In this document: one piece after another, positions 26,113-63,812 of the stretch
How the letters are laid out: each line of letters starts with the position of its first letter
Position numbering within the stretch: the first letter of the stretch is position 1
Source: Bacteroidota bacterium
Lineage (GTDB): Bacteria; Bacteroidota; Bacteroidia; UKL13-3
DNA: 64,000 bases
Reading direction: 5' to 3'
NCBI GenBank assembly: GCA_040388375.1
Contig: JAZKBU010000005.1
Location: forward strand, 1 to 64,000
The notes under the pieces: model-generated
The model's database searches: none
Told to the model about the DNA's origin: nothing
The model's input: the letters and a program-made list of their open reading frames with translations, nothing else
Translations under genes and position numbers: made by a program

Positions 26113-27207
26113 TTATGCTGGTTGCTTCGATTTGTCGTAGCTTTCAACTGTATTTATTAATGTGTCTGCATACTTAAAGATGTCGTCAAGAGTTGAGATT
26201 TCATTTTTGATTTCTTTCTTTTGGTCATCAAAAATTCCGATACATTTTTTTGCTCCTAAATATAGTCGGCAAATTGTTTTACGGTTATTATCGTCCAGTA
26301 AGATTGCAAAATATGATTGTGCGTCCCTATGCGTTACTCTGTTTGCTTTAATTTTTTGTCGTAGGATTGTTTTTACAATCATAAATGCTTCCAGTTCTTC
26401 CTCCGTAGTTATAATCTTACTTTCTTCTGCTTTCATTTGGTCTGCTGCTACTTGAATAGCTTCTTGCTCTTTGATTGCTGTATCTTCTTTTGTCAAGGCA
26501 GTTTTTAATCGTTCCGTAATAAGGTCACTTATATTTTGTTGAATAGACTTTTTTGTCAAAGCAGTAAACTGTTCCAACACTTTGGCTGTAATTACACTTG
26601 GATAAACTTGTCTGGCAAAGTGCTTAACAAACTCAGGGCTGGGATTAGCAAACTCTGAATTAAGTAAAATCTTTAGTTCATTAGTATATTTTAAATCGCT
26701 TGCTGTATTTAAAATATTGTCAAAGTCATAATAAGCTTTATGAAATTTTTTAAGCTCTTCAATTTGATTGTCCTTAATTTCCGTGATATTAAAAACGAAA
26801 AATGGTTTTTCATCCATCTTGTTTGGTTCAACCAAGTCGGTATAAAAACGATATTCTATTCCATTTGTAAGAATGGAAAATCTTGCTTTTGTTGTATGAA
26901 AATATCTGAATAGCTGAGAAGCATTATTGACATTTAACGGTGCTCCGTGCCATTTACATTCAATTAAAATGATTGGTTCTCCATTACGCATAATTGCATA
27001 ATCAATTTTTTCACCTTGTTTCATTCCAATGTCTGCAACTAATTCAGGAGTCACTTCATTAGGATTAAAAACATCATATCCTAGTTCTCTAATGAAAGGC
27101 ATAATAAAAGCGTTCTTTGTTGCTTCTTCGGTATTTACTTGATCTTTGAGTTTAATTACTCTGTCTCCAAGAAGTTTGATTTGGTCTTTAAAGTCCATAT
27201 TTGTCAT
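26113..27207 (-). CDS. Standalone HsdR N-terminal-type (PD-(D/E)XK) nuclease-like protein
   Basis: 364 residues. The N-terminal half matches the HSDR_N family of type I restriction subunits: EEATKNAFIMPFIRELGYDV, then a PD-(D/E)XK core with D69 in KIDYAI and E83-C-K85 in LIECKW. After it comes the SQLFRYFHTTKARFSILTNG helix typical of the group. The SF2 motor domains of a real HsdR are absent, and there is no hsdM or hsdS nearby. The C-terminal part (about 200-364) is helical and ends in a small beta domain of unknown role. Such single proteins are frequent in prophage and defence regions. The function is not known. Intergenic repeat copy B and the 42-bp hairpin array lie directly upstream. 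Confidence 0.85.
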   Translation of the reverse strand: MTNMDFKDQIKLLGDRVIKLKDQVNTEEATKNAFIMPFIRELGYDVFNPNEVTPELVADIGMKQGEKIDYAIMRNGEPIILIECKWHGAPLNVNNASQLFRYFHTTKARFSILTNGIEYRFYTDLVEPNKMDEKPFFVFNITEIKDNQIEELKKFHKAYYDFDNILNTASDLKYTNELKILLNSEFANPSPEFVKHFARQVYPSVITAKVLEQFTALTKKSIQQNISDLITERLKTALTKEDTAIKEQEAIQVAADQMKAEESKIITTEEELEAFMIVKTILRQKIKANRVTHRDAQSYFAILLDDNNRKTICRLYLGAKKCIGIFDDQKKEIKNEISTLDDIFKYADTLINTVESYDKSKQPA

Positions 27208-27339: not shown

Positions 27340-27700
27340 CATTCCCCGTTTTAGGAATGTATAAACTGAACTAATTTTATACATGTTCAGTTTCCAACAA
27401 GTAATAAATGAAATGTTTTTATATATGTTCAGTTTTGAACATGACATAATTGAAATGCTTTTATACTGTTCCGATTTTAAACATGACAAAAGTAAAGTGT
27501 TTTTATACATGTTCAGAATTGAATATGTAATAAATTAAATGCTTTTATATATGTTCAGTTTTGAACATACAGTAATTCAAATGCTTTTATACTGTTTCCC
27601 TTTCCAGCAAGTAATAAATAAAGTAATTTCCTACTGTATCAGTTTTGAACAAGTAATAAATGAGTTCATTTATTACTTGTTCTGTTTTCAACATAACATT
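27340..27700 (-). repeat. Tandem array of about 42-bp hairpin units (array 1)
   Basis: Nine units spaced mostly 41-43 bp, each a short palindrome with AAAACT-like core on the minus strand and AT-rich linkers (TAATAAATGAAATG-type). Examples: CATTCC/GGAATG at 27340-27359; ATGTTC, AGTTTT, GAACAT at 27425-27442; TATGTTC, AGTTTT, GAACATA at 27550-27569. Two units are also joined by a perfect 17-bp inverted repeat with a 2-nt loop, GAACAAGTAATAAATGA (27647-27663) with its complement (27666-27682). It is the same family as the array at 55.7-56.4 kb, in the opposite orientation. Short frames inside it are periodic by-products, not genes. Confidence 0.88.
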
Positions 27701-27738
27701 AATGAATTTTTAGAATAGTCCTTCGTTGCTTCCCGTTA

Positions 27739-55012: not shown

Positions 55013-55573
55013 TTAAAACTTTATTTTATCTCGTTTGCAAAAGTATTTTGCGTCAATGGCTGAAGTCATACAACTATTGCCATAATAAATTTTATTGTTA
55101 TAAGGTGTAACGGTGGTATCACCTTTACTATCAATATTCCGAAAAACTTTTGCACTATTCCATCCATAAATAATAGAGATAGTTTGATCATGCTTATTAC
55201 ATTTTGGACAAATCGTTTTGCCAAAATGTTTTTTGTAATCTTTGGGTATTTTAAAGGTCAATAAAATAGTGTCCTTATCCGTTGGTTTTATTGTTTGCAT
55301 ATAGGTAGCTTTTGTAGCTATGTCACTATAGTAAATGTCAAATGCTGTTTCCGCGTTTGCAGAAATGCTAAATGTTCCATCCTCATCAATAATATCTTGT
55401 CCAATAACCAATGTGTCAACCATGAATTCAATGGAGAGCCCCCAAACAGTATTTTTATTATCTGTAATAACTTTTCCTAAGAAAATAGTTTCCTTTTTTG
55501 GTGTTGCAAAACCCAAACATAAAAAGGTCAATATAGTTAGTGTAAGTATTTTGTATTTGTTTTCTTTGGTCAT
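55013..55573 (-). CDS. Secreted protein of unknown function with CxxC motif
   Basis: 186 residues. Signal peptide (about 1-23, LTILTFLCLGFATP). An all-beta transthyretin-like N-terminal half (GKVITDNKNTVWG, VDTLVIGQDIIDEDGTFSIS), as in carboxypeptidase-regulatory-like domains, then CPKCNKHD near 125 and two more C-terminal cysteines (NSCMT, YFCKR). Function unknown. It is 22 nt upstream of the DUF2251-like gene. Confidence 0.72.
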   Translation of the reverse strand: MTKENKYKILTLTILTFLCLGFATPKKETIFLGKVITDNKNTVWGLSIEFMVDTLVIGQDIIDEDGTFSISANAETAFDIYYSDIATKATYMQTIKPTDKDTILLTFKIPKDYKKHFGKTICPKCNKHDQTISIIYGWNSAKVFRNIDSKGDTTVTPYNNKIYYGNSCMTSAIDAKYFCKRDKIKF

Positions 55574-55682: not shown

Positions 55683-55706
55683 GCATTCCGCATTTCATTG
55701 CCTTTA

Positions 55707-56377
55707 AAAATGAAGGAGTACTAAATGACTTAATTTACTACACCTCCAAAACTAAAGGAGCATAAAACTATTTAATTTAGTGCTCCTTGAAAGCCGAAGG
55801 AGTATAAAAGCACTTCATTTATTACTACCTAAAAACCGAAGGTGTATAAAACTATTTAATTTAGTGCTCCTTCAAAACTGAAGGAGCATAAAAGCATTTA
55901 ATTTATGGCAGGGTAAAAACTGAACCTGCCACCAAAAAGTATTTTACATATAGGGTAAAAACTGAGACAGTATGGAAAAACTATTTTTACTATATGTTAG
56001 AAACTGAACATGCCATAAAAAAGTATTTTACTACATGTACAAAACTGAACATGCCACCAAAAAGTATTTTACATATAGGGTAAAAACCGGGACAGTATGA
56101 AAAAACTATTTTTACTATATGGTAAAAACTGAACATGCCACTCAAAAGTATTTTACATGCATGTATAAAACTGAACATATATGAAAAACATGTTTTAGAT
56201 ACACATTAGAAATTGAACATATACCAAAAAAGTATTTTATATACATGTATAAAACTGAACATATATGAAAAACATGTTTTTGGTACACATTAGAAATTGA
56301 ACATATACCAAAAAACTATTTTAAGTATATGGTAAAAACTGAGCCTGTCACCCAAAAGGTTTGTCTTATTAAATTGA
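55707..56377 (+). repeat. Tandem array of 42-bp hairpin units (array 2)
   Basis: Sixteen units. Starts are at 55707, 55749, 55791, 55833, 55875, 55917, 55959, 56001, 56042, 56084, 56126, 56168, 56210, 56252, 56294 and 56336: spacing 42 bp throughout, 41 once. Each begins AAACTGAA-like and has an AT-rich linker (TATAAAAGCATTTAATTTAT or AAAAGTATTTTAC types). Arms flanking the AAAACT core are complementary but differ between units: TGCTCCTTC/GAAGGAGCA (55865-55888), CTCCTT/AAGGAG (55783-55802), TGGCAGG/CCTGCCA (55906-55931), ACCT/AGGT (55827-55843). The first five units use GGAG stems, later ones mostly GAACAT. The last unit touches the 3' end of the putAbiC gene. Confidence 0.93.
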
Positions 56378-57388
56378 TATAAACTTAAAAGTATTTTTAG
56401 TTTTTGGATAATATTCAATATGCTTAGGATCTAAAAGTAAACTTGGTTGGAGATTTTTAAATAAATGATAATAATCTAAATTTTCTTTGAATTTATAATC
56501 ATTAGTTTTATCAATTCCAAGTGGACTTATACAGTTATAGAATAGGACTATCAATTGAGAATTTGAAAGTTGTGCTTGGATTAAATTAATATAATATTTT
56601 TCGTCTTTATATATTTCTTTTCGTTCTTGTATTGCAAACTCAATTGTATTATTAATGTATCTAAAAAAGTGTCCTAATTCACTATTAGTCTCTAAAAAGA
56701 ATTCTCTGAATAGATAGCCAACATATTCTTGTTCATTTAGAATATCTCTCCGTAACCATAGCTTTAAATCTTTATGGAATTGACCCTCACCATGCGCTAA
56801 ACTATATTCACTATAAAACTCTTGAATTGTTTCAATTGTAATATCCTTTTTGTCTTTATTAAATACATCTTTATGATTATTTATTATTGGTAGAATAGCT
56901 CTGTTTTGAAGTTGATAGTTTCTTTCCATTTGCTGAAATGAGACATGTTCTACATCAGTGTTATCTAGTTCAAATACGGCATTGTAGAAAGGTTTCATGT
57001 TTATGATCAATCCAGTAAAAAAGTTTTTATTATTAATATCTTTAAAATCTTTACTTAAACTATGTATCATATCTAACATTTTAAAAAAGGTAGACTCAAA
57101 TTGTTGCTTATGCAAATAACTTTGTTGTAGTTCCAGTTGCTCTCGTGTTTTCTTTAATTCAATTTCCTGTAAGTCATAAGTTTTTCTTATATATATAAGG
57201 GCAATAGTCGCAACAAGAGTTCCAATAATACCTCCAATAAAACCACCTAGTCCTCCAATTGAGCCAAATATATCTTCATGAGGATTTATAATTTTTATAG
57301 TCAAAACTATTTGAACTATTATGATTGTTATAATTATACCAAGGGCTATTAGTATTTTATCAAGAGGGTTTTCATGTTTGTTTTTCAT
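56369..57388 (-). CDS. Putative phage abortive infection protein (putAbiC family)
   Basis: 339 residues. Two transmembrane helices at the N-terminus (about 12-34 and 42-66), a coiled coil (LQEIELKKTREQLELQQSYL), then the putAbiC (PF16872) domain: QFESTFFKMLDMIHSLS, LGHFFRYINNTIEFAI and INLIQAQLSNSQLIVLFYNC are the conserved blocks. Family proteins are predicted membrane-anchored abortive-infection factors; the mechanism is not established. It has its own consensus promoter. Its 3' end runs into the hairpin array, so the array would be at the end of its transcript, as reverse complement. Confidence 0.85.
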   Translation of the reverse strand: MKNKHENPLDKILIALGIIITIIIVQIVLTIKIINPHEDIFGSIGGLGGFIGGIIGTLVATIALIYIRKTYDLQEIELKKTREQLELQQSYLHKQQFESTFFKMLDMIHSLSKDFKDINNKNFFTGLIINMKPFYNAVFELDNTDVEHVSFQQMERNYQLQNRAILPIINNHKDVFNKDKKDITIETIQEFYSEYSLAHGEGQFHKDLKLWLRRDILNEQEYVGYLFREFFLETNSELGHFFRYINNTIEFAIQERKEIYKDEKYYINLIQAQLSNSQLIVLFYNCISPLGIDKTNDYKFKENLDYYHLFKNLQPSLLLDPKHIEYYPKTKNTFKFISI

Positions 57389-60759: not shown

Positions 60760-61139
60760 TTGGTTGATATTGTTGAATGGTTATATTGTTAGTACTGAAT
60801 TATAGTTAGGAGGTGTGCGTTGGCCCGACAAAAAAGCGAGCCGCGCATCAGGCCCTGCGCGCAGAAGCATTTTTTTGTCTAGACTTTTTGCTTACTTTTT
60901 TGTCAATGAAAAAAGTAAGATATTAAAAAACGTTATGAAGCTATCGGAACAATCCTTTTGATAATAATAGGGAAAGGCAAGTGATTGAAATGGCTTCACT
61001 GCGTTCGCCATAACGTATGTTGAGCGTAGCCGAAACATATTTTTTGTGTTCTCTTCCGATAGCTCCCGATAACTATCGGGACGGAATTCGCTCGAACTGA
61101 CTAATAATTAAAAATTTTATTGATACAATAAGTGCTAAA
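60760..61139. other. Non-coding gap with small inverted repeats
   Basis: No gene is seen. It holds the perfect hairpin CCCGATA-AC-TATCGGG (61065-61080) and an inverted pair GCTATCGGAA (60940-60949) and TTCCGATAGC (61054-61063) that share the ATCGG core, plus a short GC-rich patch (60826-60870) that stands out from the AT-rich surroundings. Confidence 0.6.
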
Positions 61140-63500: not shown

Positions 63501-63812
63501 AGAATTTTATTTTTTAAATTAATATTGTTATTGCAATCTTTGTGTTCGTGTTACTTTGACTATAATGCGGTGCAGTGACAAGTCAGTACATCTTGTGTAT
63601 TATTTTAGCTTTGTGTAACTTCTATTGCAAATCTTGCATTATATGCTTTACAAATACAAGAGTATAAATACCCTTTTTTCGTAGTATAAATACTCTTTTT
63701 TTATACCCGTTGTTATGAAACAAATAGGTGTTTGACTTTTATCCTATTTGTTTTCAGTCATTTAAAGCCACATAGGTACAAGCAGTTCTATTTAGCCAGG
63801 CAAAGCGGGTTC

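Follow-up and report, generated by a model that had tools for sequence, protein, structure and literature searches.

In the ParR/parC and Rep/iteron systems, a helix-phased array of sites lies in the control region of the gene for the very protein that binds it; such loci serve segregation or replication, and their iterons are short. In the REP/RAYT systems, a Y1 (HUH) transposase is encoded beside extragenic palindromes. The REPs themselves are described as palindromic repeats of 20-40 bp that fall mostly into two superfamilies (PMC3733652). In the type III toxin-antitoxin systems (ToxIN, CptIN, TenpIN), diverging tandem repeats of near-fixed length stand directly upstream of one protein gene. 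For these, PMC5086642 gives repeats of 34-36 nt in three examples, with 2.8-5.5 copies, and describes a terminator before the toxin gene and toxins that belong to three sequence families.

The arrays described here resemble each of these systems in part. Directly upstream of one protein gene are tandem repeats whose length is nearly fixed and whose sequence diverges, as in the type III systems; extragenic palindromes occur at several sites in the genome, some beside a dedicated gene, as with REP/BIME elements and RAYTs; and helix-phased repeats of 42 or 41 bp lie upstream of the gene for a candidate binding protein, as in ParR/parC and iteron loci. However, our arrays have repeats of 41-43 bp in up to 16 units, tend towards dyad symmetry and also occur alone, and their protein has no convincing toxin match, all unlike the type III systems. 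They differ from REP/RAYT in being long and of fixed pitch and in having a protein without a convincing transposase match, and from ParR/parC and iterons in lying on chromosomal contigs, in multiple copies and with alternating dyads. The initial annotation of this DNA knew of no named element with this pattern, and this holds within the open-access literature searched (titles and abstracts, using repeat and type III terms), where no such element is named. Since the protein family and the array type match nothing searched, we call them new; experiment may bring them into a known kind.

The array from which we started, W55, lies in the window, a 64,000-nt stretch of DNA that was analysed as a whole. 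Arrays that adjoin a gene for the ~230-aa protein discussed below are called linked, and the others solo. W55 is solo, and its surroundings are as follows:

55690..56360, plus strand: array W55, 16 units of 42 bp, the first decayed (TRF, weight matrix).
55858..55899, plus strand: the unit with the highest score in the genome census (48.5 bits), with arms that flank an AAAACT core.
55906..55931, plus strand: unit-specific hairpin TGGCAGG/CCTGCCA (sequence inspection).
55013..55573, minus strand: 186-aa gene of unknown function, 5' end toward W55, in the orientation seen at the five linked arrays.
56369..57388, minus strand: putAbiC (putative phage abortive infection; PF16872, E=4.3e-12), with the gene end adjoining W55.

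TRF covered 55701-56342 in rows of 42, 84 and 125 bp, and a weight-matrix pass placed 16 consecutive units starting at window position 55690. Fifteen of these (55732-56360) score at least 23 bits, and the decayed first unit (55690-55731) scores 5.5 bits. The steps are 42 bp throughout with a single exception of 41 bp (55984 to 56025), and the 16-unit, 42-bp array with one off-pitch step that had been annotated is confirmed. The arm pairs quoted at the time are also present: TGCTCCTTC at 55865-55873 with GAAGGAGCA at 55880-55888 around the AAAACT core, and TGGCAGG at 55906-55912 with CCTGCCA at 55925-55931. The description of W55 as sixteen hairpins was right in that palindromes are present but overstated their number: strict palindromes (7/8 arm pairs) number 4, compared with 1.6 ± 1.2 in Markov shuffles. 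Over columns 9-15, arm pairing is 63% within units and 50% between the arms of non-neighbouring units. The units are dyad-symmetric to differing degrees, and not every one is a good hairpin. An Rfam 15 scan of the window at gathering score returned two tRNAs only, and no match for the array.

A genome census that combined DNA, protein and covariance-model searches yielded ten arrays and a lone unit (C2:55385-55426); the covariance model scored the best 150 of 7115 first-look candidates, and the ten arrays may be an incomplete count. For an ungapped 42-column alignment, 83 of the 87 units were kept, the three units below 20 bits and the lone unit being dropped. Five arrays adjoin paralogous genes for the ~230-aa protein and five, W55 among them, are solo. 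The unit sequence looks lineage-specific, because the same covariance model finds no unit match in nine congeneric genomes (E<=0.01, best 150 candidates each). As to a wider occurrence of the unit, the answer is therefore negative for the congeners by sequence model but positive in another form, since arrays of other sequence lie upstream of the homologous genes in two genomes of the same taxonomic family (G036 and G051). One further solo array lies in the window:

27359..27708, minus strand: solo array W27, eight units (one weak) at 42-bp pitch (TRF, weight matrix, period scan).
26113..27207, minus strand: HSDR_N-type restriction gene (domain match), 5' end ~150 bp from W27.

W27 belongs to the array family of W55 and is on the opposite strand. 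The five solo arrays (W55, W27, C5_225, C2_54 and C7_27) are ~100-490 bp upstream of the 5' ends of, respectively, the 186-aa gene, the HSDR_N gene, a gene that we take from its sequence to be recG, a gene for a MORN-repeat protein and a histidine kinase gene. Four of the five have the orientation relative to the gene that is seen in linked arrays, the exception being W27. Searches for remnants of the array-linked protein were negative in the window and in three other loci (L042, L044 and L047; best E 0.17). The placements at recG and at the 186-aa gene look recent, because none of the recG orthologues found in eight of the nine congeners has a 42-bp array within 1.4-1.5 kb, and the 186-aa gene has no match in the nine.

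Defence-like genes were found at 6/10 array loci among neighbours picked by hand. At solo loci these are putAbiC (W55), the HSDR_N gene (W27) and PD-T7-4 (C5_225, E=1.4e-83); elsewhere they are a type II methylase with a restriction enzyme (C1_88), AbiLi (C7_351, 3.9e-79) and GmrSD_N (C9_66). Among the proteins examined there was no defence-like match at C7_490, C6_226 or C7_27, and at C2_54 only a weak JetC-like one. In a control with 25 window proteins (the three longest of 28 omitted), the best E was 7.6e-28 among the best 25 of 55 PADLOC families. Because the neighbours were hand-picked and the control is small, we claim no enrichment in defence islands and treat the observation as a lead only.

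The five paralogous genes are all that a search of the genome found, and 5/5 have an upstream array, which ends 59-100 bp before the start codon taken. Each is transcribed away from its array, and the relative orientation of gene and array is identical in all five. The protein copies are 69-91% identical to the first copy. Searches of Pfam, NCBIfam, PHROGs, PADLOC and PDB sequences gave no convincing match for the family, and no DNA-binding domain was found in the same libraries. For the ToxN/CptN/TenpN toxin families there was no convincing match in Pfam, NCBIfam or PADLOC; Y1 (HUH) transposase models were absent among the matches, one family member having a weak IS66 match (E=0.048); and there was no convincing match to a known centromere-binding or replication protein, one member having a weak KorB_C match (E=0.15) and none a PDB sequence match. 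A weak Pfam match to 'TDH' (best E 0.014, below the cut-off where a score was shown) was treated as chance. AlphaFold modelled three sequences as all-helical, with low confidence (mean pLDDT 62 and 44), and a Foldseek search with the better model returned nothing at E<=0.001. On the strength of these models the protein is probably helical, and we claim no fold because of the low pLDDT and the empty Foldseek search. The first ~210 residues of the protein have an acidic pI (4.6-5.8) in 9/10 class-level members analysed and a basic one (8.4-9.8) in 5/15 of all members analysed.

Four of the five copies resemble one another in DNA as far as ~60-75 bp beyond the stop codon, where the similarity ends. 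These four (L018, L020, L022 and L023) share a terminator-like hairpin (AAAAGCCCTTGTA..TACAAGGGCTTTT) at most ~70 bp downstream of the stop; similar DNA is also present at another place, in L043. A gene of ~100 aa (103 aa), of unknown function, follows the array-linked gene at L018:889-1200 and L020:873-1178; it was rejected as a general partner, as only these two copies occur in the genome. At L048:6677-9454 a gene for an LRR-Roc-COR protein is convergent with the array-linked protein gene. The Bacteroidota promoter motif TAnnTTTG has one match within the arrays (8220 bases) and seven outside (11907 bases), too few to place promoters.

The protein is patchily distributed. In 64 genomes of the taxonomic family, two others besides our own have full homologues (G036 and G051), one has a fragment (G050) and one a weak interrupted match (G040); the nine congeners have one full copy and one weak interrupted match. 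A class sample gave a homologue in 17/395 genomes, many of the proteins being longer (~320 aa), and a phylum sample in 2/395 (our own and G245, of the same class). Copy number is high in places, with 14, 11 and 8 matches in G066, G148 and G239. Named records with a homologue comprise two Bacteroidetes MAGs (L056 and L057), an uncultured Cytophagales MAG (L058) and a MAG labelled Chitinophaga pinensis (L059, a fragment).

Upstream of these genes the array recurs. The upstream autocorrelation peaks at 42 bp in all five of our own copies, and 42 bp is the top upstream period in L056 and L057, which hold the full homologues of the family (0.42 and 0.38; next best 0.33 and 0.34). Autocorrelation found no upstream array at the Cytophagales homologue; a long near-perfect palindrome (TTCAAATTCAAACATATAATAAA..) lies upstream of that gene, at L058:3828-3879. 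For the class, 26 loci were fetched besides our own, and three were set aside (L061 and L064, with <180 bp upstream, and L076, a weak match whose gene was not placed). An upstream array is present in 22/23 assessable loci, at 42 bp in 19 (including L069, with two units only) and at 41 bp in three (L070, L079 and L085). The exception, L082, has a 41-bp array on the 3' (downstream) side of the gene. G148 has three more copies: L110 with a 42-bp array, L100 with a 43-bp one, and L111, where the 42-bp signal is weak (score 18) and the palindromes differ in sequence (4, compared with 0.4 expected). Overall the pitch is mostly 42 bp, 41 bp in some loci and 43 bp in one, at a G+C content anywhere from 25% to 56%, and units from different genera, read side by side, look unrelated in sequence.

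A prediction fixed beforehand was then applied to further loci in the taxonomic family of G148; of its seven genomes six had already been matched in the class search, and the test covers new gene copies more than new genomes. Of 44 matches, 30 have loci; 11 of these were already known and 19 were new, three with short upstream DNA (L154, L156 and L158). A 41- or 42-bp upstream array is present in 14/16 of the remaining new loci (score >=28; composition shuffles <=8), which are partly dependent, since at least three pairs (L151/L153, L159/L167 and L169/L170) look like near-duplicates and L150 resembles the known L147. The other two, L159 and L167, have a 21-bp period (score 20) and miss the prediction as worded. 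Downstream of the same genes, 0/13 loci with sufficient sequence have an array, and no period scores above 11.

A scan for periods of 20-80 bp in 494 kb (the window and 31 loci, picked for arrays or homologues) called 28 arrays of 41/42 bp and four of 21 bp, one further call being a masked-base artefact. At the threshold used, nothing was called in L039, L040, L058, L100 or L111, where arrays are diverged or lacking. Exact 21-bp tandem arrays, half the 42-bp pitch, lie 0.5 to 6.7 kb from 42-bp arrays at L104:12477-12784, L107:11794-12041, L109:10696-10860 and L092:7583-7713.

The evidence that array and protein gene are paired across the Bacteroidia is strong. The exact phasing to which attention had first been drawn in W55 is supported more firmly than was noted then, since homologous genes have the 42-bp pitch upstream (41 in some cases, 43 in one) even where the array sequences are unrelated. 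Pitch and symmetry persist after the sequence itself has diverged.

In our own units a dyad axis lies in the AAAACT core, and pairing is also seen across the A/T spacer, exactly 21 bp away. As a second axis at the half-period follows from whole-unit symmetry, it was examined locally with disjoint bases. The half-unit second axis ranks first in 9/28 arrays, compared with 14/1120 column-shuffled arrays. In a set of 42 gene-linked arrays, which omits L069, L111, L153, L159, L167 and L170 (short, weak, duplicate-like or 21-bp) and the five solo arrays, the best local axis exceeds column shuffles at p<0.05 in 26 and fails to do so in 16, and the half-unit axis is among the top three ranks in 19. 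Only two of our five linked arrays pass this dyad test alone (L020 and L022). Dyads are general in tendency, not universal.

The initial annotation had also seen the two arms of a unit change together. In the 83 units of the ten arrays, 70.7% of cells are paired (62.1 in shuffles), the covariation score is 0.401 (0.247 ± 0.015 in shuffles; <=0.183 with slid partners), and cells with a change on both sides number 132 (60 in shuffles); all three values lie above all 500 shuffles. However, pairs changed on both sides (9, compared with 8.7 shuffled) and further pair types (21, compared with 22.8) show no excess, and these two measures are, according to the tool, those least misled by relatedness. 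As the units are related, covariation counts are not probabilities. Within single arrays (ten, uncorrected; columns 9-15), the arms of a unit beat shuffled arms at p<0.05 only in W55 (p=0.017), and pairing across the spacer reaches this level in C7_351 alone (p=0.011). Widening the columns to 8-16 adds C1_88 (p=0.035, core) and C6_226 (p=0.0035, for the better of the two axes). Shuffling arms within an array keeps most of the pairing, and every array has its own palindromic arm type. Co-variation of the arms around a conserved core thus stands on three of five measures, mostly as a difference between arrays, but not on the two that kinship misleads least. Arm types do not track the protein tree; for example, the L018 and L022 copies, with 91% identical proteins, differ in their arms. 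Drifting DNA sites of the dimer type would also leave such between-array covariation, and RNA pairing would not be required.

We propose, with roughly even confidence and from sequence comparison, that W55 is an orphan array from a two-part Bacteroidia module not described so far, in which the arrays would serve as a double-stranded DNA lattice for the neighbouring protein. One part would be the dyad-tending units at a pitch of 42 bp (41-43), often with a second dyad two helical turns away, and the other the gene downstream, which encodes an uncharacterised and probably helical protein. This protein, acting as a dimer or in a larger assembly, would bind double-stranded array DNA on one face of the helix, coat the array and so control its own promoter. 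Solo arrays such as W55 could then give one of the five paralogues additional sites, whether for docking, for regulation or as decoys. The arm type differs from one array to the next, as though every protein-array pair used a private address. Of the roles first suggested for the array, a protein-binding scaffold fits best; a recombination substrate, another of these, may also apply. Several observations count against the DNA lattice: the mostly acidic N-terminal ~210 residues and the failure to find a DNA-binding domain; the 16/42 arrays that fail the dyad test, the two null covariation measures and the arm types that depart from the protein tree; the 3'-side array of L082, the array-less L058 and the weak signal of L111; and a mismatch bias on the gene-sense strand (p=0.0135, below) that is unlike plain double-stranded sites.

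A bolder version, possible in our view but rather doubtful, is a self-addressing system. Each paralogue would recognise the geometry of its own array, a lattice with a dyad every two helical turns, and the arm sequence would drift freely as a private address. Paralogues within a cell would then read different arrays and could be sent to remote solo arrays such as W55. If true, this would be a new kind of nucleic-acid/protein partnership, with one array-protein pair per locus. The conserved pairing of arrays of fixed helical geometry and free sequence with a protein family that no library searched names raises a tractable question: which factor recognises the geometry instead of the sequence, and to what end. 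Because both genes and arrays are short and one genome contains several copies, paralogues can be compared directly for binding specificity. A role in silencing, organising, defending or mobilising DNA would amount to a new mechanism in a large class of bacteria, and an RNA-based module would add a new relative to the repeat-RNA toxin systems.

That the array acts as RNA together with the adjoining protein, by analogy with type III toxin-antitoxin systems, seems to us unlikely. The position upstream of one gene would suit it, and in 7/29 loci a separate promoter would hardly fit, the array ending no more than 50 bp from the start taken. Type III antitoxins likewise keep repeat length despite diverging sequence (PMC5086642). 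RNA hairpins on the gene-sense strand should leave more G-T than A-C mismatches, and the reverse is observed. On that strand, 28 arrays have 110 G-T and 174 A-C mismatches; among well-supported pairs in the 42 arrays there are 101 A-C and 56 G-T, with A-C in excess in 24 arrays versus 9, with 9 ties (p=0.0135). The A-C excess also appears relative to shifted axes, a control for composition (19 arrays versus 9). On the array strand of our own 83 units the two counts hardly differ (62 G-T, 54 A-C). An A-C excess would not be expected of plain double-stranded sites either; RNA from the other strand, in which these mismatches would be G-U, or strand-biased mutation may account for it. Array RNA folds better than shuffles both ways (median z -2.3 sense, -2.4 antisense), but folding energy gives no consistent preference of strand (25 versus 16 of 42 arrays, p=0.17), and W55 itself has the more stable fold on the minus strand (z -6.3; plus strand z -4.3). 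Taken with the lack of wobble enrichment, this does not bear out the structured RNA that the initial annotation had offered as one role. The RNA reading also has to contend with the absence of an Rfam family, with the solo arrays, and with a four-turn phasing that has no reason in RNA.

We think it quite unlikely that the module is a mobile or selfish element, in which the arrays would be the cis substrate, the protein a mobility factor and the solo arrays non-autonomous copies, as with REPs and their transposase. The multi-copy, patchy distribution (five copies here) and the recent look of the solo array beside recG (0/8 congener orthologues) are what such an element might give, and the common limit of similarity past the stop codon in 4/5 copies could mark its end. 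However, that limit coincides with the terminator-like hairpin AAAAGCCCTTGTA/TACAAGGGCTTTT, an ordinary place for similarity to stop, and the protein has no convincing transposase match. Two family members had no match in phage or plasmid records, nor in two scans of viral contigs; a phage or plasmid origin was rejected for these reasons.

Binding by an unrelated host transcription factor, with the protein gene as a mere regulated target, is very unlikely. It could explain why five solo arrays stand upstream of other genes, four of them in the linked orientation, and a dyad site is typical of dimeric regulators; but a single specificity leaves the differing arm types within one genome unexplained, and the association is kept across the class despite wholly different sequences. 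The DNA lattice for the neighbouring protein remains our preferred reading over all of these.

A neutral minisatellite or coding repeat, to which block structure in the arrays (as slippage gives) and open frames spanning many of them might point, is highly improbable given the same pitch with unrelated sequence upstream of homologous genes and the arm covariation, and a coding repeat was rejected because a 41-bp period cannot hold a reading frame and open frames on either strand are expected, 42 being divisible by 3. The claim that W55 reflects more than neutral satellite decay is accordingly upheld by the kept pitch and the covariation.

Other repeats occur near some of the arrays. Short tandem repeats of ~22 bp (AAAAAGAGTATTTATACTACT-like) lie at L019:2474-2516, L020:5347-5433 and L022:2667-2729, ~20, 2600 and 140 bp from three arrays, and repeats of 81, 24 and 16 bp (TAACCATTCAACCAAT-like) lie between the solo array and recG at L019:3080-3400. 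A dispersed element of ~110 bp is present in the window at 60807-60921, with copies of 84-85% identity to it at L042:1665-1773 and L044:1016-1129. A second dispersed element, of ~40 bp with copies ~87-97% identical, is found near several arrays, at 63661-63701 in the window and at L042:9473-9513, L043:5859-5901, L047:9617-9659 and L048:3326-3369.
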